In this document: positions 4,909 to 64,000 of the stretch, piece by piece
Position numbering within the stretch: position 1 is the first letter of the stretch
Layout: each line of letters begins with the position of its first letter
Made by a program: the position numbers and the translations under genes
The notes under the pieces: model-generated
Databases searched by the model: none
Told to the model about the DNA's origin: nothing
The model's input: the letters and a program-made list of their open reading frames with translations, nothing else
Assembly (NCBI GenBank): GCA_030446715.1
Contig: JAUJMU010000004.1
Span: 170,931 to 234,930, forward strand
Reading direction: 5' to 3'
Length of the DNA stretch: 64,000 nucleotides
Source of the DNA: Cytophagales bacterium
GTDB taxonomy: Bacteria; Bacteroidota; Bacteroidia; Cytophagales; 172606-1

Positions 4909-5196
4909 ATGGCGCACATTGCAGTACCTATTCCGCAGCTTCCGGGGAAGCAGGATATTGAAATTGAAGTAACCATCAATGGTCAGAAACAGCAACTTCA
5001 CTACCGGGTGGAGTTATTTTACTGGGAGGATTGTAAGATCCCCGTGATCGACCGGGCTGAATGCATCCGGCAGATGCTGGCTGGCTACGACCAGGACTGG
5101 ACGCTTTACTACATCGGGGCTCCCACGGACCAGTTCGTGCCCATCACATTTGTGAGAAAGAATGAGCCCATGGCGAAGCGGCAGCGGTTTGCTTAG
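4909..5196 (+). CDS. Conserved small cytoplasmic protein, function unknown
   Basis: A 95-residue soluble protein with no signal peptide or membrane segment. It alternates beta-type stretches (IEIEVTINGQKQQLHYRVE) with a short helix (IDRAECIRQMLAGY) and ends in a predicted strand (QFVPITFVRK). Its look matches a small conserved hypothetical family that I recall only from Bacteroidota. It has its own candidate promoter and stands alone between a gene desert and a decayed permease, so context gives no clue to its role. The ATG at 4909 is the first in frame and gives a good family-like N-terminus. Confidence 0.75.
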   Translation: MAHIAVPIPQLPGKQDIEIEVTINGQKQQLHYRVELFYWEDCKIPVIDRAECIRQMLAGYDQDWTLYYIGAPTDQFVPITFVRKNEPMAKRQRFA

Positions 5197-5481: not shown

Positions 5482-5885
5482 ATGCTCCAGAATTACTTTG
5501 AGATTGCCTTCCGCAATCTGCTCAGGCACAAAGGCTACACAGCGGTACATGTGTTTGGCCTTACGGTCGGCATTGCCTCGTGCCTGTTGATCTTCATGTA
5601 CGTACAGCACGAACTGAGCTTTGACAAATTCCACGACAAGACGGGCCGCATTTACCGGATTCACAATGTGTTGACGCTTCCTTCGGGCGAATATCCGTAC
5701 CCGACCTGCAACTCAGCCCTGCCCCCGGCCATGAAGCGGGACGTGCCGGGCGTGCAAAACTACACCCGTATACTCCGGCTGAACGGCGCGGCCTTCGGCA
5801 ACGAACCGGTTGTACAGGTCGGCAAGGCGCGTTATTCCGAAAAGGACTTTCTGGTGGCCGATGATACCTTTTTTGATGTTTTTTC
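5482..5885 (+). pseudogene. FtsX/MacB-like permease, N-terminal remnant
   Basis: Starts like an intact family member: cytoplasmic NYFEIAFRNLLRHKGY, a first transmembrane helix (VFGLTVGIASCLLIFMYV), then the first part of the periplasmic core ending at DDTFFDVFS. About 135 of the usual 800 residues remain, and no FtsX domain follows. The frame is cut at position 5886, where an IS1-like end (GGTAATGG) begins. The ORF runs on for only seven unrelated codons to a stop at 5907. The missing 3' part does not lie beyond the relic, since the next gene begins at 6095, so insertion was probably followed by an adjacent deletion. Not expected to be functional. Confidence 0.85.
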
Positions 5886-6077
5886 GGTAATGGTACAGAA
5901 GAGTTGATTGGTTAAGTTTGCAAAAAGTTAAACGGATATGATTTTAGAAGCACGTAGCTGCGCCTGTTGCGGGAGTACAAACATTGTGGAGTACAAACAT
6001 TGTTAAGAATGGCAACTCCTATAACCTCAGTATGACTTGATTTCTCAATCCCATATCAACTAGTAAGTACCATTACC
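5886..6077 (+). mobile_element. Miniature IS1-like relic inside the permease
   Basis: A 192-bp segment bounded by an 11-bp inverted repeat, GGTAATGGTAC at 5886-5896 and its complement at 6067-6077. An ORF from ATG 5938 begins MILEARSCACCGSTNIV, the zinc-finger start of IS1-family InsA proteins (Cys-x2-Cys-Gly-Ser). A tandem 16-bp duplication (5972-5987 and 5988-6003) throws it out of frame; without it the reading continues VKNGNSYN, again as in InsA. The rest of the transposase is absent. No clear target duplication flanks it, consistent with an adjacent deletion. Family assignment rests on motif recognition only. Confidence 0.6.
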
Positions 6078-6094
6078 TCTTTTCCTTATCCCAA

Positions 6095-7024
6095 ATGCCA
6101 AACAAACCATCAGTCCGGAACACATACCGGCAGGCGGGTGCCATGGCCCTCCTGCTGGCTTTACTTCTGGTATGCCCGGACGTAAGGGCACAGTCCGGGC
6201 AACGCCCCGCTATTATGGGCATTGCGGGCGTTTCTTTGCAGGTAAGCGATATGGATAAAGCCCTGGCGTTCTACGGCAAGCTGCTGGGCTTTCCCCACAC
6301 CAGCCGGCAAAAGGATACCGCTACGGCCAAAGGCCCGAAAATTATTGATTTCCGGGTAAACGACCGGCAATCCATCCGGCTCTCCGACGGATTATCTCCC
6401 GGACAGGAGGAGCGGCTGCTGGAGGTAGCCTTTCAGACCACGGATGCCGAAGGACTCCGGCAGTATCTGCAGGAAAACGGAATAGACGTACCTGCCTCCG
6501 TGAGCCGGGAAGCAGAAAATACTTTCAGCTTTAATTTAAAAGATTCCGAAGGAAACCGGATCAGGTTCCTTCAGTATTTTTCTCCTGCCCCGGCCGCAAA
6601 AATTAAACCCGGCCGTACCGGCACCCCGCTTTCGGACCGCATCCTGCACGTAGGGCTACAGGTCAGGGACCAGCCGGCAGCCGACCGGTTTTACCGCGAT
6701 GTGCTGGGATTTTCGGAGATTTGGCGGGGGGGCCGCACCGACAGCGTGACCAGCTGGATCAATCTGCGGGTGCCCGAAGGGACGGATTACCTTGAATACA
6801 TGCTGGTGCCGGGAAAAGTCAGCCGGCAGCAACTGGGCGTACTGCACCACCTTGCCCTGCTGGTTCCCGATATACAGAAGGCGCTGGATATACTGCGGCA
6901 ACGGTACCCGGACGGGACACGCCTTCCTGTCCCCGGCATTGGCCGCAACAACCGCTGGCAGCTCAACCTGTTTGATCCGGAAGGCACCCGCGTGGAACTG
7001 ATGGAACCCTTCACTTTCCGCTGA
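6095..7024 (+). CDS. Secreted protein with two VOC (glyoxalase-like) domains
   Basis: The 309-residue protein has a signal peptide of about 32 residues (hydrophobic ALLLALLLVC, cleavage after VRA-Q). Two VOC modules follow, at about 40-165 (IAGVSLQVSDMDKALAFYGKLLGF to EGNRIRFLQYF) and 182-308 (HVGLQVRDQPAADRFYRDVLGF to DPEGTRVELMEPF). Each has the beta-alpha-beta-beta-beta layout and the metal-ligand type ends (His or Ser early, Glu late). VOC proteins include lyases, dioxygenases and binding proteins; export suggests a periplasmic or extracellular substrate, which I cannot name. The gene begins just 17 bp after the IS relic, so its original promoter may have been replaced. Confidence 0.8.
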   Translation: MPNKPSVRNTYRQAGAMALLLALLLVCPDVRAQSGQRPAIMGIAGVSLQVSDMDKALAFYGKLLGFPHTSRQKDTATAKGPKIIDFRVNDRQSIRLSDGLSPGQEERLLEVAFQTTDAEGLRQYLQENGIDVPASVSREAENTFSFNLKDSEGNRIRFLQYFSPAPAAKIKPGRTGTPLSDRILHVGLQVRDQPAADRFYRDVLGFSEIWRGGRTDSVTSWINLRVPEGTDYLEYMLVPGKVSRQQLGVLHHLALLVPDIQKALDILRQRYPDGTRLPVPGIGRNNRWQLNLFDPEGTRVELMEPFTFR

Positions 7025-7164: not shown

Positions 7165-7848
7165 ATGAAATTCCTGATTTGCAATGCATTCCTGTTGCTC
7201 CTGTTCGTTTCGGCCGGAGCCCAGGGGAAAATAAATGTCTCCCTCAAAAAGGAACTGGACAGCCTGTTTGTGCTGGACCAGAAATACCGGGAGTTTATGG
7301 GTCCCGATGCCGGCCCGAAAGCAGATTCTCTGGCAAAGGCCGTAAACATACCGCGCAGCAATATAAACGGGTATCTCTGGCAGCAGCAGAACCGCATCGA
7401 TTCCGCCAACCTCGTGCGGATTGAGAAAATCATCGCGCAGTACGGGTACCCGGGCAAAACGCTGGTCGGCACGCCTGCCAACGAGGCTGCGTACTATGTC
7501 CTTCAGCACTCCCCGAAGATAAAACAATACTTCCCCATCATTGAGTCAGCCGCCCGGAAGGGTGAACTTCCATTTACCAGGTTTGCCACCATGCAGGACC
7601 GGCTCCTGATGCAGGAAGGCAAAGAGCAGATTTACGGTACGCAGGGCTACGGCTTTGCCAGTGAGGGTGCTGACGGGAAGCCCGGGCCGATGCAGATGTT
7701 CATCTGGCCGGTGGGTGACCCGAAAAATGTGAACCGCCGGCGAAAAGAAGCTGGCTTCCCCGACACGGTGGAGGAAAATGCCCGCCGCCTCGGCATCCCC
7801 TACAAAGTGCTTACGCTGGACGAGGTAAAGAAAATGCAGGGAAAATGA
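7165..7848 (+). CDS. Secreted DUF6624-like protein
   Basis: A 227-residue protein with a signal peptide (MKFLICNAFLLLLFVSAGA-Q). Its body matches what I recall of DUF6624: an early LDQKYR box, YGYPGKTLVGTPANEAAYYVLQHS in the middle, a helix with ARKGELPFTRFATMQDRLLM, and the QIYGTQGYGF box near residue 155. No catalytic function is established for the family. It lies 140 bp after the VOC gene on the same strand and ends three bases from a spurious upstream start of the next gene, so co-transcription with the amidase is possible. Confidence 0.7.
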   Translation: MKFLICNAFLLLLFVSAGAQGKINVSLKKELDSLFVLDQKYREFMGPDAGPKADSLAKAVNIPRSNINGYLWQQQNRIDSANLVRIEKIIAQYGYPGKTLVGTPANEAAYYVLQHSPKIKQYFPIIESAARKGELPFTRFATMQDRLLMQEGKEQIYGTQGYGFASEGADGKPGPMQMFIWPVGDPKNVNRRRKEAGFPDTVEENARRLGIPYKVLTLDEVKKMQGK

Positions 7849-7946
7849 CTGGTCGCGTGCCGCTGAGCTTGTCCCTTGGCGAAAACCCGGTTGGCCCTGA
7901 GCCTCACGAATCTGAACCTTTACTTTTAATAGTCTCCTCTCCGAAA

Positions 7947-9592
7947 ATGAACAGAAGAAAATTTATAAAAAACGGCTCTCTTGCGGGACTATCCTTATCT
8001 ACTCTGGCGGTTATATCCTGCAACTCCGGCTCCGCTGAAGGGGGCCGCCAGACCGCCACCGGAACGACCGCAGCCAACCGGGCACCCACAGAGTTTCCGC
8101 TCCACGAAGCTACCCTTGCCTGGTTGCTGAGGAGCAAATGAAAAGCGGCGGCCAGACGGCCCGTTCCATTACCCGGCTTTACCTGGACCGGATCGCTGCC
8201 ATTGACCAGCAGGGCCCCACCCTGAAGTCGGTGATCGAGGTCAACCCCGACGCCCTTGCCATTGCCGATGCCATGGACCGCGAACGGAAAGAGGGCAAGG
8301 TGCGGGGGCCGCTGCATGGCATTCCAGTGCTGATCAAGGACAACATCAACACCGCCGACAAAATGATGACCACCGCCGGGGCGCTGGCTCTTGAAGGCAA
8401 CCGGGCAGCCAAGGACGCACTCATTGCGGCCCGCCTCCGGGAAGCAGGGGCCGTACTGCTGGGCAAGACCAACCTGAGCGAATGGGCCAACTTCCGGTCT
8501 GAGCGGTCGAGCAGCGGCTGGAGCAGCCGGGGCGGCCAGACCCGCAACGCGTACGTGCTTGACCGTAATCCCTGCGGCTCCAGCTCAGGGTCGGGCGTAG
8601 CCGTATCGGCCAACCTGTGCGCAGTGGCCATCGGCACGGAAACCAACGGGTCCATTATCTGCCCCGCTTCCATCAACGGAGTTGTGGGCTTTAAACCCAC
8701 CGTGGGTCTGTGGAGCCGCGCCGGCATCATTCCCATTTCCCACACCCAGGACACGGCCGGACCGATGGCCCGTACCGTTACAGACGCCGCCATCCTGCTG
8801 GGGGCCCTGACCGGCGAAGATCCGGCAGACAAGGTTACCGGTGAAAGCACTGGTAAGTTTCAAAAGGATTACACCTCTTTTCTTGACCCCAACGGACTGA
8901 AAGGCAAAAGGATCGGCGTAGAAAAGGCTTTCCGCAAAGGTCATGAAGGCGTGGACCCACTGCTGGAGGAGGCACTTGAACTGCTGAAGAAAGCCGGAGC
9001 TACCCTGGTAGAGGTGGAAGTGATCCCGAAGATGCGGGCCATTTCGGGTGCGGAGTACGAAATATTGCAGTACGAATTCAGGGACGGGGTGAACCGCTAC
9101 CTCGCCGGCGCCAATGGCAAGGTGAAGTCGCTGAAAGACGTAATTGAATTTAACCGTCAGCACGAAAAGGAGGTGATGCCGTATTTCAAACAGGAAATCC
9201 TCGAAAGTTCTGACAAAAAAGGCGACCTCACCAGCAAAGAATACCGCGATGCGTTGCAGAAGTGCCTCTCCGCAGCCCGGGGCACCATTGACCGGGTGAT
9301 GAAAGAAAACGGGCTGGCCGCCATTACCGGGCCCTCGTACGGCCCCACATGGTGCACCGATCTGATCAACGGCGACCATTTTTCGGGGTATGGCATGTCT
9401 ACACCGGCGGCGGTGGCCGGCTACCCGCATATTACCGTACCAATGGGCATGGTGCAGGGGCTGCCCATCGGCCTTTCGTTCTACGGCGGGGCTTATACCG
9501 AACCCGAACTGATCCGGATTGCCTACGCCTACGAACAGGCTTCCAAAAAACGGGTAGCACCGGAGCTGAAAAGTACGGTGGGAACGGTATAG
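7947..9592 (+). pseudogene. Amidase-signature enzyme split by a one-base frameshift
   Basis: Amidase-signature family hydrolase of C-N bonds. The first piece (7947-8141) carries a twin-arginine-like lipoprotein leader (MNRRKFIKNG ... AVISC-N) and ends prematurely at TGA 8139-8141. The second piece (ATG 8138 to 9592, 484 aa) holds the whole catalytic domain: IPVLIKDN (catalytic Lys), the Gly/Ser-rich GSSSGSG and the TETNGSI box with the Ser pair. Homologues run straight from the leader into KSGxxTxRxITxLYLxRI, so one base seems lost near 8120. The shift creates an ATGA overlap with GAGGAG just ahead of the second ATG, so a leaderless cytoplasmic enzyme might still be made. Sequencing error is a live alternative. 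Confidence 0.75.
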
Positions 9593-39305: not shown

Positions 39306-40108
39306 GGTAGTGGTTAAGTAGAGGCTGATTTTAGAAATTGGTAACTTAGGAAGAAAGGTTTAAAAAGCATATGATTCAGATTACCAAGGCATGTCCTCAT
39401 TGCGGTAGTATTGACTTAGTGAGCAACGGCCATAATAAGAAAAACGGTAAGCAAAAGTATTACTGTAATGGCTGTGACAGATACGGCACTTTGGATGCAG
39501 CTCCCCGCTATAGTGAAGAGCGCAAAGAAGAGATTCTGAAAGCCTATTTTGAAAGACCCAGTATGCGGGGTATTGAACGCGTTTTGGCGTAGCCCGGCAA
39601 ACGGTCTCTGCCTGGCTCAGGCAGCAAGGCGAAAAGCATCCGGATCTGGAGGCTACCTTGGGTGATGTGCCTACTGAGCAGGGGATGTGCTCGAGTATGA
39701 CGAATTGCAGCACTTTGTCAAAAAAAAGCCAAAAGCGCTGGCTCTGGACGGTAATCAGCCGGAAAACACGTAAAATCATTGCTTTCTTTATTGGGGACCA
39801 TAGTATGGAGAGTTGTAAGATACTTTGGCAAAGAATTCCCGAAAGATTACGCTGCCAGACCAGCTTTTCCGATTTCTGGGAAGCATACAATTTTATCTAT
39901 CAGCAGACCGGGCAGCATCAGAAAGTAGGCAAAGAATCCGGTCAAACTAACCACATGGAACGCTGGAACAATACCATCCGTCAGTGGATGGGTAGACTTA
40001 CCCGAAAGACGCTTTCTTTTCTAAATCTGACTTTTACAATGAACTCGTCATCCGCCTTTTCATTGTCCGCTACAACCTCAGTAAATCAGTCTCTACTTAA
40101 CCACTACC
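39306..40108 (+). mobile_element. IS1-family insertion sequence, 803 bp
   Basis: The ends 39306-39327 and 40087-40108 are inverted repeats matching in 21 of 22 bases, starting GGTAGTGGTTAAGTAGAG. A perfect 8-bp direct repeat AAAATTCT flanks the element (39298-39305 and 40109-40116), the target size usual for IS1. Length fits IS1 (about 0.77 kb). The insert is inside a GNAT gene. The transposase is broken by several frameshifts, so the copy is probably inactive, although an intact copy elsewhere could mobilise it. Confidence 0.92.
39371..40100 (+). pseudogene. Degenerate IS1-type transposase (InsA/InsB)
   Basis: InsA-like start: CPHCGSIDLVSNGHNKKNGK and YYCNGC zinc-finger, stop at 39592. Coding similarity then shifts frame: FGVARQTVSAWLRQQGEKHP (about 39588 on), then DVLEYDELQHFVKKK (39684 on) with the first catalytic Asp region, then RWLWTVISRKTRKIIAFFIGD and NHMERWNNTIRQWMGRLTRKT after a run of eight A at 39719-39727, and finally SKSDFYNELVIRLFIVRYNL to TAA 40098-40100. 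IS1 uses one programmed shift in an A-rich site; here four changes of frame are needed, so decay is likely even if the A-run is functional. Confidence 0.85.
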
Positions 40109-54001: not shown

Positions 54002-56419
54002 ATGCTGAAAAGTTATCTGACCATTGCCCTCCGCAATCTGTCGCGGCACAAAGGCTACACCTTTATCAACGTGCTGGGCCTGACGGTAGGCCTCGCCTGC
54101 TTTCTGCTCATTGCCCTGTACGTAAAGGACGAACTGAGTTACGACCGGTACAACACCAAAGCTGACCGCATTTACCGCGTCACCCGCGATTGGGTAGGCA
54201 AAGATGGTACCGTGACCCTCCACCTGGGTCACGTGGCGCCGCCGTTCGGGCCGCTGCTGAAAACTGAATTCGGCGAAGTTGAACAGGTGGTGCGGACCCT
54301 CGGAAGCGGCCTGACGCTAAGCTACGGCGAAAATACCTTCAGCGAAGAGGAGGTTTTCTTCGCCGAAGACAACATTTTCAAGGTGTTTACCTTCCGGGTA
54401 ATGCAGGGCAACCCGGATAAGGCGCTGACCGATCCTTTCACGGTCATGCTTTCGCATCCGATGGCCGAAAAGTATTTCAGGGGAGAAAATCCGGTGGGTA
54501 AAACGCTGCGGATGAATGACCGTTACTCCCTCACCGTCAGCGGCGTATTTGAACCCTTGCCGGCCCAGTCGCACTTTCATCCGCAGTTTCTGGTTTCCTT
54601 CAAAACGCTGGAAGACGACCGGATTTACGGCAAGGAAGGCCTCCGGACCAACTTTGGCAACAACTCCTTTGCCACCTACATGCTGCTGCCGGCCAACTAC
54701 GATGCGGGCCGGATCAGTGCCCGTCTGCCCGGATTCATTGACAAGCACGTAACCAACGACGGGGATAAACCATCCAAATGGACCCGGCTATACCTGCAAA
54801 AGTTAACGGATATTCACCTGAAGTCGCACCTTGATTCGGAAATTGAAGCCAACGGCGACATTAACTACATTTATATTTTCTCAGCCATAGGATTGCTGGT
54901 GCTCCTCATTGCCTGCATCAATTACATGAATCTGGCCACAGCCCGTTCGGCGGGCCGCGCCAAAGAAGTAGGCTTGCGAAAAGTAATCGGTGCCCGGCGG
55001 GGGCAACTGATCGGCCAGTTTCTGAGCGAATCGGCCCTGCTGACGGTTATTGCTCTGGTGCTGGCCGTGATGGTTGCAGTTCTCATGCTGCCGTACCTGA
55101 ATGATTTTTCCGGGAAGCAGCTAACTTTAGATAATCTGCTGGACGGCCCGATCATTGCCATTGTGGTGTTGCTGGCGGTCATCACCGGACTGGCGGCGGG
55201 CAGTTATCCGGCGTTTTTCCTCGCTTCCTTCCAGCCGGTAAAGGTGCTCAAAGGCAAGCTGAGTGCGGCCTCCCGCAACAGCAGCCTGCGGCAGACGCTG
55301 GTGGTGGTGCAGTTTGGCATCTCCATCTTCCTGATCATTTGCACGGTAGTAGTGTACCGGCAACTGAACTACATGCAGGACAAGAGCCTCGGCTACCGCA
55401 AAGACCAGATTGTGGTGCTGCCGGTGTTTTACAGCGACAGTACCATTAATTACCAGACCTTTATGGACGAGTTGAAAGCCAGCACCGCCATAAAGAATGC
55501 CGGCCGGTCGTCACGCATTCCGTCTGGCAGGCTGCTGGATACCAACGGCTCTCAGGTAATGAAAGGAGACTCACTGGCACCAACCGAAATACCAATCAAA
55601 TTCCTGCGGGTGGATCACGATTTTATTCCCACTTATGAAATGAAGCTTTTGGCGGGCCGTAATTTCTCCCGTCAGTTTGCTACGGATGACACCACGGCTT
55701 TTATCCTCAACGAAGCCGCCGTAAAGGGAATCGGCTGGAAAAACCCCGAACAGGCCATTGACCAGCCTTTTGGCTACGGTGACCGCAAAGGCAAAATCAT
55801 CGGGGTGCTGAAGGATTTTCATTTTGAATCGCTGCACGAAAAAATAGTACCGATGGTACTGCTGATGAGTAACAACCGCTACGGCAACCTGTCGGTGAGT
55901 CTGGCGGGCAACGATATTCCGGCGGCTCTTTCGCACGTAGAGAAGACATGGAAGAAATTTCTGCCCAACCGGCCCTTCGGGTATGAGTTTCTGGACCAGC
56001 GTTTTGGTGAACTTTACCAGGCGGAGGAAACCCGGGGTACATTGTTTACCATTTTCGCTTCCATCTCTATCTTCATTGCCTGCCTGGGACTGTTTGGCCT
56101 GGCCTCTTTTACCATTACCCGGCGCAGCAAGGAAATCAGCGTACGCAAGGTGCTTGGCGCGTCGGTAACGGGCATTGTCGGGCTGCTTTCCAAAGAATTT
56201 GTTCGCCTGGTGCTGATAGCTTTCCTGCTGGCGATTCCGCTGTCGTGGTACTTCATGGACAAGTGGCTGCAGGATTTTGCCTACCGCACCAGCATCGGAG
56301 TGGATATATTCATCATTGCCGGGTTTGTAGCCCTGTTCATTGCCCTGGCAACGGTAAGCTATCAGGCCATCAAGGCGGCCCTTGCCAACCCGGTCAACGC
56401 GCTGCGGAATAATGAGTAG
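54002..56419 (+). CDS. FtsX/MacB-like ABC transporter permease, complete
   Basis: The full 805-residue form of the family: cytoplasmic LKSYLTIALRNLSRHKGYTF, first helix VLGLTVGLACFLLIALYV, MacB core (about 50-270), FtsX unit 1 (about 285-420, GRAKEVGLRKVIGARRGQ), middle helix (about 435), second periplasmic segment, FtsX unit 2 (about 680-800, RRSKEISVRKVLGASVTG). It ends with the family tail ALANPVNALRNNE. Exporter or mechanotransmission partner of an ATPase not in the window. The two neighbours of this type near 60-64 kb run in the opposite direction. Confidence 0.92.
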   Translation: MLKSYLTIALRNLSRHKGYTFINVLGLTVGLACFLLIALYVKDELSYDRYNTKADRIYRVTRDWVGKDGTVTLHLGHVAPPFGPLLKTEFGEVEQVVRTLGSGLTLSYGENTFSEEEVFFAEDNIFKVFTFRVMQGNPDKALTDPFTVMLSHPMAEKYFRGENPVGKTLRMNDRYSLTVSGVFEPLPAQSHFHPQFLVSFKTLEDDRIYGKEGLRTNFGNNSFATYMLLPANYDAGRISARLPGFIDKHVTNDGDKPSKWTRLYLQKLTDIHLKSHLDSEIEANGDINYIYIFSAIGLLVLLIACINYMNLATARSAGRAKEVGLRKVIGARRGQLIGQFLSESALLTVIALVLAVMVAVLMLPYLNDFSGKQLTLDNLLDGPIIAIVVLLAVITGLAAGSYPAFFLASFQPVKVLKGKLSAASRNSSLRQTLVVVQFGISIFLIICTVVVYRQLNYMQDKSLGYRKDQIVVLPVFYSDSTINYQTFMDELKASTAIKNAGRSSRIPSGRLLDTNGSQVMKGDSLAPTEIPIKFLRVDHDFIPTYEMKLLAGRNFSRQFATDDTTAFILNEAAVKGIGWKNPEQAIDQPFGYGDRKGKIIGVLKDFHFESLHEKIVPMVLLMSNNRYGNLSVSLAGNDIPAALSHVEKTWKKFLPNRPFGYEFLDQRFGELYQAEETRGTLFTIFASISIFIACLGLFGLASFTITRRSKEISVRKVLGASVTGIVGLLSKEFVRLVLIAFLLAIPLSWYFMDKWLQDFAYRTSIGVDIFIIAGFVALFIALATVSYQAIKAALANPVNALRNNE

Positions 56420-59626: not shown

Positions 59627-62062
59627 CTATTCCGACCTCAGGCTTTTCACCGGATTGGCCAGCGCCGCCCTGATCGCCTGGTAACTGACCGTGAGCAAAG
59701 CAATGAGCAGGGCACTACCGCCGGCCACGGCGAATATGGCCCAGCCGATGGGGATGCGGTAGGCAAAATCCTGCAGCCAGGTATCGAGGGCAAACCACGC
59801 CAGCGGGGTAGCCAGCACAATGGCGACCAGCACCAGCTTCACAAATTCGCCCGAAATCAAAGCCACCAGGCTACCCACCGAAGCGCCCAGCACCTTGCGG
59901 ATGCCGATCTCCTTTACCTTCTGCTGCGTGGTAAACAGAATCAGGCCGTACAGACCGAGGCAAGAGATCAGCACCGCCAGACCGGCAAAGTTGCGGACCA
60001 GCTTGCCAAGCCGCTCCTCGGACTGGTACTGTTGGTTCAGGTCCTCGTCCAGAAAGGAGTAGTCGAATACCTTCTCCGGGAAAAATTTCCCCCAGGTTTC
60101 CCGCACGTGGGCAATGGTGGCGGGCACGTTATGGCCGGAAATCCGGACCGAAAACACGGTAAAGATTGGAGCCCAGACGTCGATCACCAACGCTTCAATG
60201 GGTTCGCGGAGCGGCCGGAAATGGAAATCCTGCACGACACCGACCACGCGGCCCTTTTTGCCTTCCCGTTCAAATTGTTTCCCGATAGCCGCTTCCGGTG
60301 AGGGCCAGCCAAAATCCTTCACTGCTTTTTCATTCAGAATAAAGGCTTCCAGGAAGTCAGTGCCGTAGGTTTTGGAAAAATCACGGCCGGCGACCAGTTT
60401 TAATTTATAGGCGGGAATAAAATCATAATCAACCGTAAGACTGGCTACGTACAGGTTGTCTTCTTGGGTAAAACCTTCCGGAATGGTGCCGCGGCGGATG
60501 GCACCCGTACCCGGCCGGCCCGCCGACAAGGTGGTGGCTTCAATATTCGGGTTGGTCAGCAGCGCTTCCTCAAAGCCATTCATCCGGTTGCGGAGCGCAT
60601 TATCCACACCGCCGAAAATCGTGTTTATGTTCTCGCTGAACAGGGGAATGATCAGCATCTGGTCCTTCTGAAAGCCCAGCGACTGGTTGCGCATGTACTG
60701 CCACTGATTCCACGCAATCAGCGAACCCATGATCAGGGTAATGGTGACCGTAAACTGCACGATCACCAAACCCTTGCGCAGCAGCACGCCCCGGCTCAGA
60801 CTACCAGCGGCCAGCCCTTTCAGCGTCTTAACGGGCTGGAAATTAGTTACAAAAAAAGCCGGATAAAGGCCAGCCAGCAGACCCGCCAGCAGAAATACGC
60901 CCAACATTCCGGCCAATACAGGCGCCGCGGCCAGTGAAGTCAGGGAAAGGCTCTTTTGTGTCAGCTGGTTCACCTCCGGCAGGAAAAGGCTCATCAGACC
61001 AATTGCCAGCACCAGGGCCAGCAGGCTCACCAGCAGAGACTCGCCCAGAAACTGCCCCACCAGCTGAGTTTTCTCCGCGCCCAGCACCTTGCGCATGCCT
61101 ACCTCGCGGGCCCGTTTCAGCGACCTTGCCGTAGACAGGTTGATGAAGTTGATGCAGGCAATCAGCAGGGTAATGAGCGCAATGCCGGAGAAAATGTAGA
61201 GATAGGTAGTGCTGGAAACCGGCTCGGGCTGCGATTCAATATCTGACCGGAGATGCAAATCGGTAAGCGCCGTAAGGGTAAAGGTCTGTTTGCGCCGGAA
61301 AACAGGGTTGCCGAACTTCTCCAGAAAAGCAGGAAAAGCCCTATCTACCGCCGCAGGTGATTTACCGGGGTACAGCAATACGTAGGTATAGGAATGGGTA
61401 ATGATCCAGTTTTGTGGCAGGTTTTTGCCCACTTCTTCGTTCTCTACCGCAAACATGGTCTGGTAACCCGCCAGAAAATCAAAGTGCAGGTGCGACTGGG
61501 GCGGGAAAGGTTTTACCACGCCGGTCACCCGTAAGGGATGTTGTCCGGCGAACAGCAGCGTTTTGCCCATTGGGTCGGTACTTCCGAAATACTTCCGGGC
61601 AGTGGGCTCAGTAATCACTACCGCAAACGGCTCCTGTAGTGCCGTCCGGGGGTCTCCTTTCAGGAAATCAAAAGTGAAGATGTTGGTGATGGCTGAATCC
61701 GCGAAAAAGAAGCGTTCCTCTTCGTGCTGAACTTTTGTGCCACCATCAGGCCGGGCCACTTCGATGGTAGCACTCCGGAAATACACCCGGGCCACTTCCT
61801 CTACTTCCGGAAAGTTTGCCTTCATCAGCGGCGCAATGGGTGGCGGCGTACGGGCCATTTTGCCAGTTTCCAAACCGTAAGTAAGCTGATAGACGCGATC
61901 CCCTTTCTGGTGAAAGCGGTCATATACCAACTCATCCTGCACAAACAGCAGAATCAGCAGACAACAGGCCATGCCTACGGCCAAGCCACTGACGTTGATA
62001 AACGAGTAGCTCTTGTGCCGCCACAGGTTGCGCAGGGCAATTTTGAAGTAGTTGCGTAGCAT
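59627..62062 (-). CDS. FtsX/MacB-like ABC transporter permease, complete
   Basis: A full 811-residue member: MLRNYFKIALRNLWRHKSYS, helix 1 (VSGLAVGMACCLLILLFV), MacB core, FtsX unit 1 (about 280-415, LKRAREVGMRKVLGAEKTQ), middle helix near 440, second periplasmic part, FtsX unit 2 (about 690-810, QKVKEIGIRKVLGASVGS), tail IRAALANPVKSLRSE. It lies in tandem, same direction, behind the next permease (63931-62195) with only a palindromic repeat between. The last 115 residues of these two proteins are nearly the same, which points to recent duplication or gene conversion. Confidence 0.92.
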   Translation of the reverse strand: MLRNYFKIALRNLWRHKSYSFINVSGLAVGMACCLLILLFVQDELVYDRFHQKGDRVYQLTYGLETGKMARTPPPIAPLMKANFPEVEEVARVYFRSATIEVARPDGGTKVQHEEERFFFADSAITNIFTFDFLKGDPRTALQEPFAVVITEPTARKYFGSTDPMGKTLLFAGQHPLRVTGVVKPFPPQSHLHFDFLAGYQTMFAVENEEVGKNLPQNWIITHSYTYVLLYPGKSPAAVDRAFPAFLEKFGNPVFRRKQTFTLTALTDLHLRSDIESQPEPVSSTTYLYIFSGIALITLLIACINFINLSTARSLKRAREVGMRKVLGAEKTQLVGQFLGESLLVSLLALVLAIGLMSLFLPEVNQLTQKSLSLTSLAAAPVLAGMLGVFLLAGLLAGLYPAFFVTNFQPVKTLKGLAAGSLSRGVLLRKGLVIVQFTVTITLIMGSLIAWNQWQYMRNQSLGFQKDQMLIIPLFSENINTIFGGVDNALRNRMNGFEEALLTNPNIEATTLSAGRPGTGAIRRGTIPEGFTQEDNLYVASLTVDYDFIPAYKLKLVAGRDFSKTYGTDFLEAFILNEKAVKDFGWPSPEAAIGKQFEREGKKGRVVGVVQDFHFRPLREPIEALVIDVWAPIFTVFSVRISGHNVPATIAHVRETWGKFFPEKVFDYSFLDEDLNQQYQSEERLGKLVRNFAGLAVLISCLGLYGLILFTTQQKVKEIGIRKVLGASVGSLVALISGEFVKLVLVAIVLATPLAWFALDTWLQDFAYRIPIGWAIFAVAGGSALLIALLTVSYQAIRAALANPVKSLRSE

Positions 62063-62194: not shown

Positions 62195-64000
62195 TTACTC
62201 CGACCTTAGCGACTTCACCGGGTTCGCCAGTGCCGCCTTTATCGCCTGGTAGCTGACGGTGAGTACGGCAATGAGCAGCGCAGTGCCGCCGGCTACGACG
62301 AATACTGCCCAGCCGATGGGGATACGGTAGGCAAAATCCTGTAGCCAGGTGTCGAGGGCATACCACGCCAATGGGGTAGCCAGTACAATGGCGACCAAAA
62401 CCAGCTTGACAAATTCGCCCGAAAGCAAAGCCACGAGGCTGCCCACTGAGGCGCCCAGCACCTTGCGGATGCCGATCTCTTTGGTGCGTTTTTCGGCCAT
62501 GAAGGTGGCAAGGCCAAATAAGCCAAGGCAGGCAATGGCAATAGCCAGCGTGGCAAATACCGTAAACAACCGGGCCAGCCGCTGCTCCGTTTTGTACTGC
62601 TTGTCAAAATCTTCGTCGAGGAAGAAATATTCGAAAGGATAGCCCGGGAAGCGGGACTTCCAGTAACGCTCCACCCCCGCAACGGTTCTGGTCAATTCCC
62701 CCGGCCCTAGCCGGACGGCCAGGTACTGGTGAAATGGCTGAATAAAAGTAAGTACCGGCTCAATTTTGCGCTGCAAACCGTGCTGGTGGTAGTCAGCAAG
62801 GACGCCGATCACTTTTCCTTTTTCCATGCCCGCCGTGCTGATGCCCTTGCCAACGGCTTCTTCCGGCGTCCAGCCGAAGGCCTTTGCGGCAGATTCGTTG
62901 ATCAGCACACCACTTTCGGCGTCGGTGGCAAACTGTTCGGAGTAATCCCGCCCGGCCTTGATTTGAAGGCCAATCGTTTTTACGTAGTGGTGGTCCACCG
63001 GAATCACCTCCATGGTAATGGCCTGCTCCTGCGGACGCCCTTCCGGCACCACCAGCTGGCCTTCCCAGCCGCCCCGGCCCGGCAAGCCCGCGGCCCCGGA
63101 TACCGACTGCACGTTGGCTAATCCACGTAGTCCCTCCTTTACACTTTCGCGGTTTTCGAAGAAGTTCCGGCGCGGCGCTTTGCGAAGCTCCACCACCAGT
63201 ACCCGTTCCTTATTAAAGCCTAACTCCCGGCTCTGCATGTACCGCACCTGCCGTACCGCCACCAGGGTACCGATGATCAGCAGCAGGGAAACGCAAAACT
63301 GAAAAACTACCAGACCTTTGCGGAGCCATGCCCCTCTCCCATCCGTACGGATCTGGCCTTTAAGGGTATCCACCGGCTTGTACTTTGCCAGCAGCAGCGC
63401 CGGATACCAGCCCGCCAGCAGTCCGGTTACCAGCAGAAATCCAAGAATCAGAGCAGCCGTAACCGGCTTCACCAGCAGGCTCAGCGTCAGCGTTTTTTCG
63501 GCAATATCATTCAGCGACGGCAGCAGCAGACCCATCAGCAGCAGCGCCACCAGGCCCGACAAAAACACCAGTACCATTGATTCACCCATAAACTGCCCCA
63601 CCAGCGAACGGTAACCGGCTCCGATGGTCTTGCGGATGCCTACTTCGCGGGCCCGGTCGGCCTGGCGGGCGGTGGTCAGGTTTACAAAATTGATGCAGGC
63701 CAGCAGCAGGATAAAGAGCCCAATAGCGGCCAGGACGTACAGTTGCGTGGCACTGCCGGAAGGGCGGTTGAAGCCCCCGGCTTTGGAGTGGAGGTAAATC
63801 TGGGATACGGGTTCCAGGGAGTGGGAGACCTGGTAACCGTATTCCTTGTACTGCCTGCCGTAGTGATGCATCGACAGCGCCGCGATTTTCTTTTCGGCTG
63901 CTGCTTTGTTTACGTTTTCGGGCAGCAGCACGTACAGGGTTTCATCCCAGGTAAACCACTCCTTGTTGTCACCGCCGAGGGCAAAGAAGGTAGGCAGGGA
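62195..64000 (-). CDS. FtsX/MacB-like ABC transporter permease, 5' end outside window
   Basis: The frame is open to the window edge, so the N-terminal helix is missing. Visible in order: end of the MacB core (SLPTFFALGGDNKEWFTWDE), FtsX unit 1 (ADRAREVGIRKTIGAGYRS, about 400 residues before the end), middle helix, second periplasmic part, FtsX unit 2 with EKRTKEIGIRKVLGASVGS, tail IKAALANPVKSLRSE. It precedes the permease at 59627-62062 in transcription; the pair may be co-transcribed despite the repeat between them. Confidence 0.9.
   Translation of the reverse strand, partial: SLPTFFALGGDNKEWFTWDETLYVLLPENVNKAAAEKKIAALSMHHYGRQYKEYGYQVSHSLEPVSQIYLHSKAGGFNRPSGSATQLYVLAAIGLFILLLACINFVNLTTARQADRAREVGIRKTIGAGYRSLVGQFMGESMVLVFLSGLVALLLMGLLLPSLNDIAEKTLTLSLLVKPVTAALILGFLLVTGLLAGWYPALLLAKYKPVDTLKGQIRTDGRGAWLRKGLVVFQFCVSLLLIIGTLVAVRQVRYMQSRELGFNKERVLVVELRKAPRRNFFENRESVKEGLRGLANVQSVSGAAGLPGRGGWEGQLVVPEGRPQEQAITMEVIPVDHHYVKTIGLQIKAGRDYSEQFATDAESGVLINESAAKAFGWTPEEAVGKGISTAGMEKGKVIGVLADYHQHGLQRKIEPVLTFIQPFHQYLAVRLGPGELTRTVAGVERYWKSRFPGYPFEYFFLDEDFDKQYKTEQRLARLFTVFATLAIAIACLGLFGLATFMAEKRTKEIGIRKVLGASVGSLVALLSGEFVKLVLVAIVLATPLAWYALDTWLQDFAYRIPIGWAVFVVAGGTALLIAVLTVSYQAIKAALANPVKSLRSE

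Follow-up and report, generated by a model that had tools for sequence, protein, structure and literature searches.

Insertion sequences (IS) of the IS1 family generate target-site duplications of ~8-9 bp, and their two ORFs usually lie in a -1 arrangement. Miniature derivatives of insertion sequences are designated by the terms MITE or MIC. One of the Bacteroidota in which IS1-family elements have been described is Amoebophilus asiaticus. According to the available part of its description, ISCaa4 of this bacterium belongs to the IS1 family, its two ORFs overlap in a -1 arrangement and its DDE motif is typical, and the genome contains 143 truncated IS copies, with 101 full-length ones (83%) being devoid of direct repeats (PMC3196728). 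The absence of such a duplication has a recognised cause in adjacent deletion, which the accessible part of another study documents for 14 cases of IS150 and one of IS5 in laboratory E. coli, none of them involving IS1 (PMC11708052). As for IS1 miniatures, nothing specific is found in the available part of PMC3718332.

The window analysed here is a stretch of 64,000 bp from a Cytophagales bacterium (G000:C7:170931-234930) with a genome of 6.4 Mb in 25 contigs. At positions 5886-6077 of its forward strand, a 192-bp internally deleted IS1-family element abuts the stub of a permease gene. Follow-up analysis confirmed that this element is a real, ordinary scar of old transposon activity.

A 192-bp derivative of IS1

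The terminal inverted repeats of the element are located at 5886-5912 (left end, plus strand) and 6051-6077 (right end, minus strand). Their outermost 11 bases, GGTAATGGTAC on the left (5886-5896) and its exact inverse on the right (6067-6077), agree at 11 of 11 positions and bound the 192 bp just as an earlier note on this DNA had claimed. In an end-to-end alignment the two termini share 20 of 27 bases, with GGTAATGGTAC followed by a variable stretch and then by AGTTGAT. An 11-bp perfect inverted repeat is on its own not remarkable in the window, where 67 pairs separated by loops of 50-1000 bp are counted and 20 shuffles of single bases inside 1-kb blocks gave 16.2 on average (range 9-25). 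The possibility of a chance repeat was nevertheless rejected, because both halves of the element show homology to IS1. In own-genome searches, element bases 1-102 align to positions 1-102 of L006, an 801-bp IS1 copy on contig C13 (L006 2512-3312), with 76% identity (E 8.2e-15), and bases 130-192 align to its positions 739-801 with 79% identity (E 1.4e-8). Bases 111-130 match L006 95-114 at 18 of 20 positions. The element corresponds to L006 1-114 joined to 739-801, with ~624 bp of the middle gone relative to L006, and the 11-bp ends of both are identical, which places it in the IS1 family. A left-end relic on contig C4 is 84% identical to bases 1-102 (E 1.2e-25). The existence of related copies in the same genome had been set beforehand as a test of the proposed miniature IS1-like relic; the C4 relic, L006 on C13 and a total of 14 DDE_Tnp_IS1 matches bear it out.

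Remnants of both transposase genes can still be recognised. The start of insA (5938-6006, plus strand; 22 codons and a stop) opens with an ATG at 5938, and its translation begins MILEARSCACCGSTNIV, with the stop five codons after. The InsA-like zinc-finger start claimed earlier is present, though just the first CxxC of the zinc ribbon survives; in L006 the InsA ORF matches PF03811. The frame is broken by a 16-bp tandem duplication (GGAGTACAAACATTGT twice, 5972-6003, plus strand), the unit of which is single in the C4 and C13 copies. The end of insB reads SYNLSMT* (6017-6040, plus strand), InsB of L006 ending in AYSYNLNTT*. With the first insA codons and the last insB codons as its coding content, the element has neither a complete InsA zinc ribbon nor a DDE InsB transposase and is, judged by this content, a derivative of IS1 rather than an autonomous member of the family. 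Upstream of insA, 25 bp before its start codon, TAAGTTTG at 5913-5920 is the sole match within 5886-6160 to TAnnTTTG, the promoter element consensus of the Bacteroidota, and may be the old, putative promoter of the transposase.

The IS1 set of the genome is modest and mostly broken. L006 contains ORFs in two frames that match Zn_ribbon_InsA (PF03811, E 1.2e-6) and DDE_Tnp_IS1 (PF03400, E 1.1e-12). This copy adjoins the end of a protein gene (L006 3308-3556), the product of which has a C-terminus resembling a T9SS sorting domain. Three further copies, examined by three-frame translation, carry GGTARTGGTAA ends and measure 804, 806 and 798 bp (L007, L014 and L015). L007 has two ORFs in the -1 arrangement, L014 is frame-shifted inside the first ORF, and L015 displays a single open frame of 273 codons with its last part shifted. 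Judging from these frames, transposase may still be produced by some copies (L007, L015). The window itself holds an IS1 copy at 39306-40108 (803 bp), with GGTAGTGGTTAAGTAGAGRC at both ends (19 of 20 matching), a DDE_Tnp_IS1 match and a broken first frame. In the contig collection, the L006 transposase has four relatives from two Cytophagales metagenome assemblies. The element documents an IS1 subgroup in the lineage and leaves the general picture unchanged.

The truncated permease and its place in relatives

The gene at the left edge of the element encodes a truncated FtsX/MacB-type permease (5485-5907, plus strand; PF12704, E 2.5e-6). Its native part, 5485-5885, consists of 133 codons plus the first two bases of codon 134, followed by six IS-derived codons and a stop at 5907. 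The MacB_PCD (PF12704) match extends over residues 19-134, so that homology reaches the left edge of the element, where the earlier note had the permease stop, and ~134 codons remain here. The remainder is indeed absent to the right, since the full-length permease of a relative (G005) aligns to 5482-5886 with its residues 1-128 and, at E<=1e-3, to nothing further before 54002, the start of a different, complete permease. The stub has neither of the FtsX domains and is predicted to be non-functional. Comparison with the permease start of G002, a genome of the same genus, gives a pN of 0.10 and a pS of 0.73 over 66 codons (0.06 and 0.65 for the gene upstream), low values of pN relative to pS which indicate that the permease gene has been under constraint for most of the divergence time from G002.

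Shortened permease frames are not rare in the own genome. The permease N-terminus has 28 matches there, itself included, 20 of them in frames of 798-982 codons and eight, the window permease among them, in frames of 152-593 codons. Half of the matches (14 of 28) are on C7, and the window holds more FtsX/MacB-type permeases at 3-2261, 54002-56413, 59630-62062 and 62198-63958.

The syntenic place in relatives was located by means of the gene upstream of the permease (4909-5196, plus strand; 95 aa, no Pfam match at E<=0.001), which serves as an anchor and is present in 14 of 59 genomes, own included. Outside the own genome, a same-strand permease follows directly downstream at nine of 14 examined loci (L068, L070-L076 and L081); two listed anchor places lack a separate locus, and one of these is a tandem copy inside L072. 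Given that the conserved 95-aa gene precedes an FtsX/MacB-type permease at these nine relative loci, its product is possibly a functional partner or regulator of the permease. Among the five loci without a permease, L077 and L079 have just 112 and 331 bp of contig left, L078 and L080 have an anchor of a more distant type, and L069 (G001) gives no permease match in the 1.5 kb downstream.

As the earlier note had anticipated, a full-length permease stands at this place in the majority of the relatives examined: six of the seven longer stretches show a complete frame after the anchor (G003, G005, G016, G034, G006 and G004, with 801, 801, 841, 816, 807 and 815 codons from stop to stop, respectively). 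These full-length syntenic homologs, together with the MacB_PCD domain of the stub, identify it as a truncated permease. The exception is G001, of the same genus, in the 11.5-kb stretch of which no permease was matched after the anchor; the gene can therefore be missing here for other reasons as well. In G002, contig C225 breaks off after the first 66 residues of the permease, which are 80% identical, so that an intact same-genus ortholog is not readable. A search for the rest of this permease on other G002 contigs with residues 65-134 returned two weak hits, both to other permeases.

To the right of the deletion lies a gene of the glyoxalase superfamily (6095-7024, plus strand; 309 aa, PF00903 E 6e-21). 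At a cut-off of E<=1e-20, none of the 193 other relatives has a match to it, and it gave no downstream synteny. Farther along, at 7845-9592, the start of an amidase (a signal-peptide-like ORF, 7845-8141) and its body (8138-9592, PF01425) are in different frames, which suggests a frameshift or a sequencing error.

Origin of the deletion

The history that we consider likely starts with the insertion of an IS1-family element into the first sixth of the permease gene, at the 'FFDVFS' point. A transposase-driven adjacent deletion from the right IS end would then have eliminated the remainder of the permease, so that the glyoxalase gene came to lie next to the element and the target-site duplication was destroyed. 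The decay of the element would have included, at some point, the loss of ~624 internal bp and the 16-bp duplication that broke what remained of insA. Insertion followed by adjacent deletion had already been proposed in the earlier note, and the missing duplication and the lost right part of the permease fit with it; the mechanism itself is reconstructed from the present arrangement, and the flanks admit two other readings.

Around the element, any target-site duplication is exact over no more than 2 bp (TC), and the 7-bp flanks, TTTTTTC on one side and TCTTTTC on the other, are the same at 6 of 7 positions. Perfect target-site duplications surround two other IS1 copies of the genome, CAAACTGA (8 bp) at L007 and AGTATTG (7 bp) at L014. 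At the lengths tried, L006 and L015 are also without one, so that its absence is nothing unusual in this genome.

The first bases of the right flank, TCTTTTCCT, count against adjacent deletion. Translated in frame with the permease they give S-F-P, which the syntenic permeases of G003 and G005 also have there, and these residues would be gone if the deletion had begun precisely at the IS end. They would be accounted for if the insertion had produced a duplication of just 2 bp (TC), or one that has since eroded, and an ordinary deletion, unrelated to the transposase, had later begun at least ~9 bp to the right of the element. By a rough estimate, S-F-P would occur by chance in less than 1 in 100 cases, for a match that was noticed post hoc. 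On the other hand, the agreement is confined to three residues, the next ones being YPKCQ, unlike LLQGN, and the syntenic permease of a third relative, G006 (L087), has D-Y-T at the corresponding site. A regular expression for the FSFP site caught some permeases together with unrelated frames; of the six syntenic ones in the longer stretches it showed L083, L084 and L087, and the comparison was confined to these rows. Moreover, two other copies are flanked by duplications of 7-8 bp rather than 2. An ordinary deletion beside a simple insertion is regarded as rather unlikely, though it deserves to be weighed.

The near-identity of the flanks could instead mean that the permease was cut first and that the IS entered the junction later, giving a 7-bp duplication whose two copies came to differ by one base. 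The agreement at 6 of 7 positions and the 7- and 8-bp duplications of other copies speak for such an order of events. The flanks, however, form a T-rich (pyrimidine-rich) tract, in which this agreement would arise by chance in roughly 1 of 12 cases (a rough estimate), and an insertion exactly at the point of an earlier deletion would be a coincidence, which makes a prior cut improbable. The sister relics on C4 and C13 would also permit recombination between two IS1 copies to have carried the permease remainder elsewhere, a very improbable event given that 0 of 62 own-genome FtsX-domain matches fall within 40 kb of these relics, and a remainder next to either of them is accordingly disfavoured.

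Copy number and comparison with known systems

Sequence searches with the 192 bp recovered no other copy in the own genome and none in two further genomes of the genus, G001 included. Among 193 other relatives, with the best four candidates per genome scored, there was no copy except for a 29-bp hit in G169, and a plasmid search gave no match. The element looks like a lone relic and not like a spreading MITE or a family of them; an active MITE family is held unlikely in view of the lack of further copies in genome, relatives and plasmids. That it might be a mobile non-autonomous IS1 (MITE/MIC), trans-mobilised by a full-length IS1, could be argued from its two intact terminal repeats and from the presence of possible transposase makers in the genome, L007 with its two ORFs and perfect 8-bp duplication and L015 with its 273 codons, but the ends of these two copies differ (GGTARTGGTAA), the element is single in its own genome and absent from the 193 other relatives, and it has no clear duplication, all of which leaves very little room for mobility. 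It is equally hard to credit that a non-autonomous IS1 derivative, which a full-length IS1 of the lineage could still mobilise, is seen here in its first copy. Under the likely history of insertion, adjacent deletion and decay, the element has probably become a scar without mobility, and its interest is that of a small, easily read case of IS-associated erosion affecting one gene of a large permease family.

With MITEs and MICs the element has in common two IS terminal repeats around a short non-coding core and the lack of a transposase, whereas the several copies that mobilisation would leave are replaced here by a single one with no sign of mobility. With the IS-associated deletions in the available part of PMC11708052 it shares an IS at the edge of the deletion and a missing duplication; those deletions are documented and none is of IS1, whereas the history of the window is deduced from its present state. 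In comparison with ISCaa4 and the IS1 family, it differs in having no transposase and 192 bp vs. ~800, but it retains the terminal repeats, the InsA start and the InsB end of an element whose full copies in this genome are ~800 bp long and match PF03811 and PF03400.
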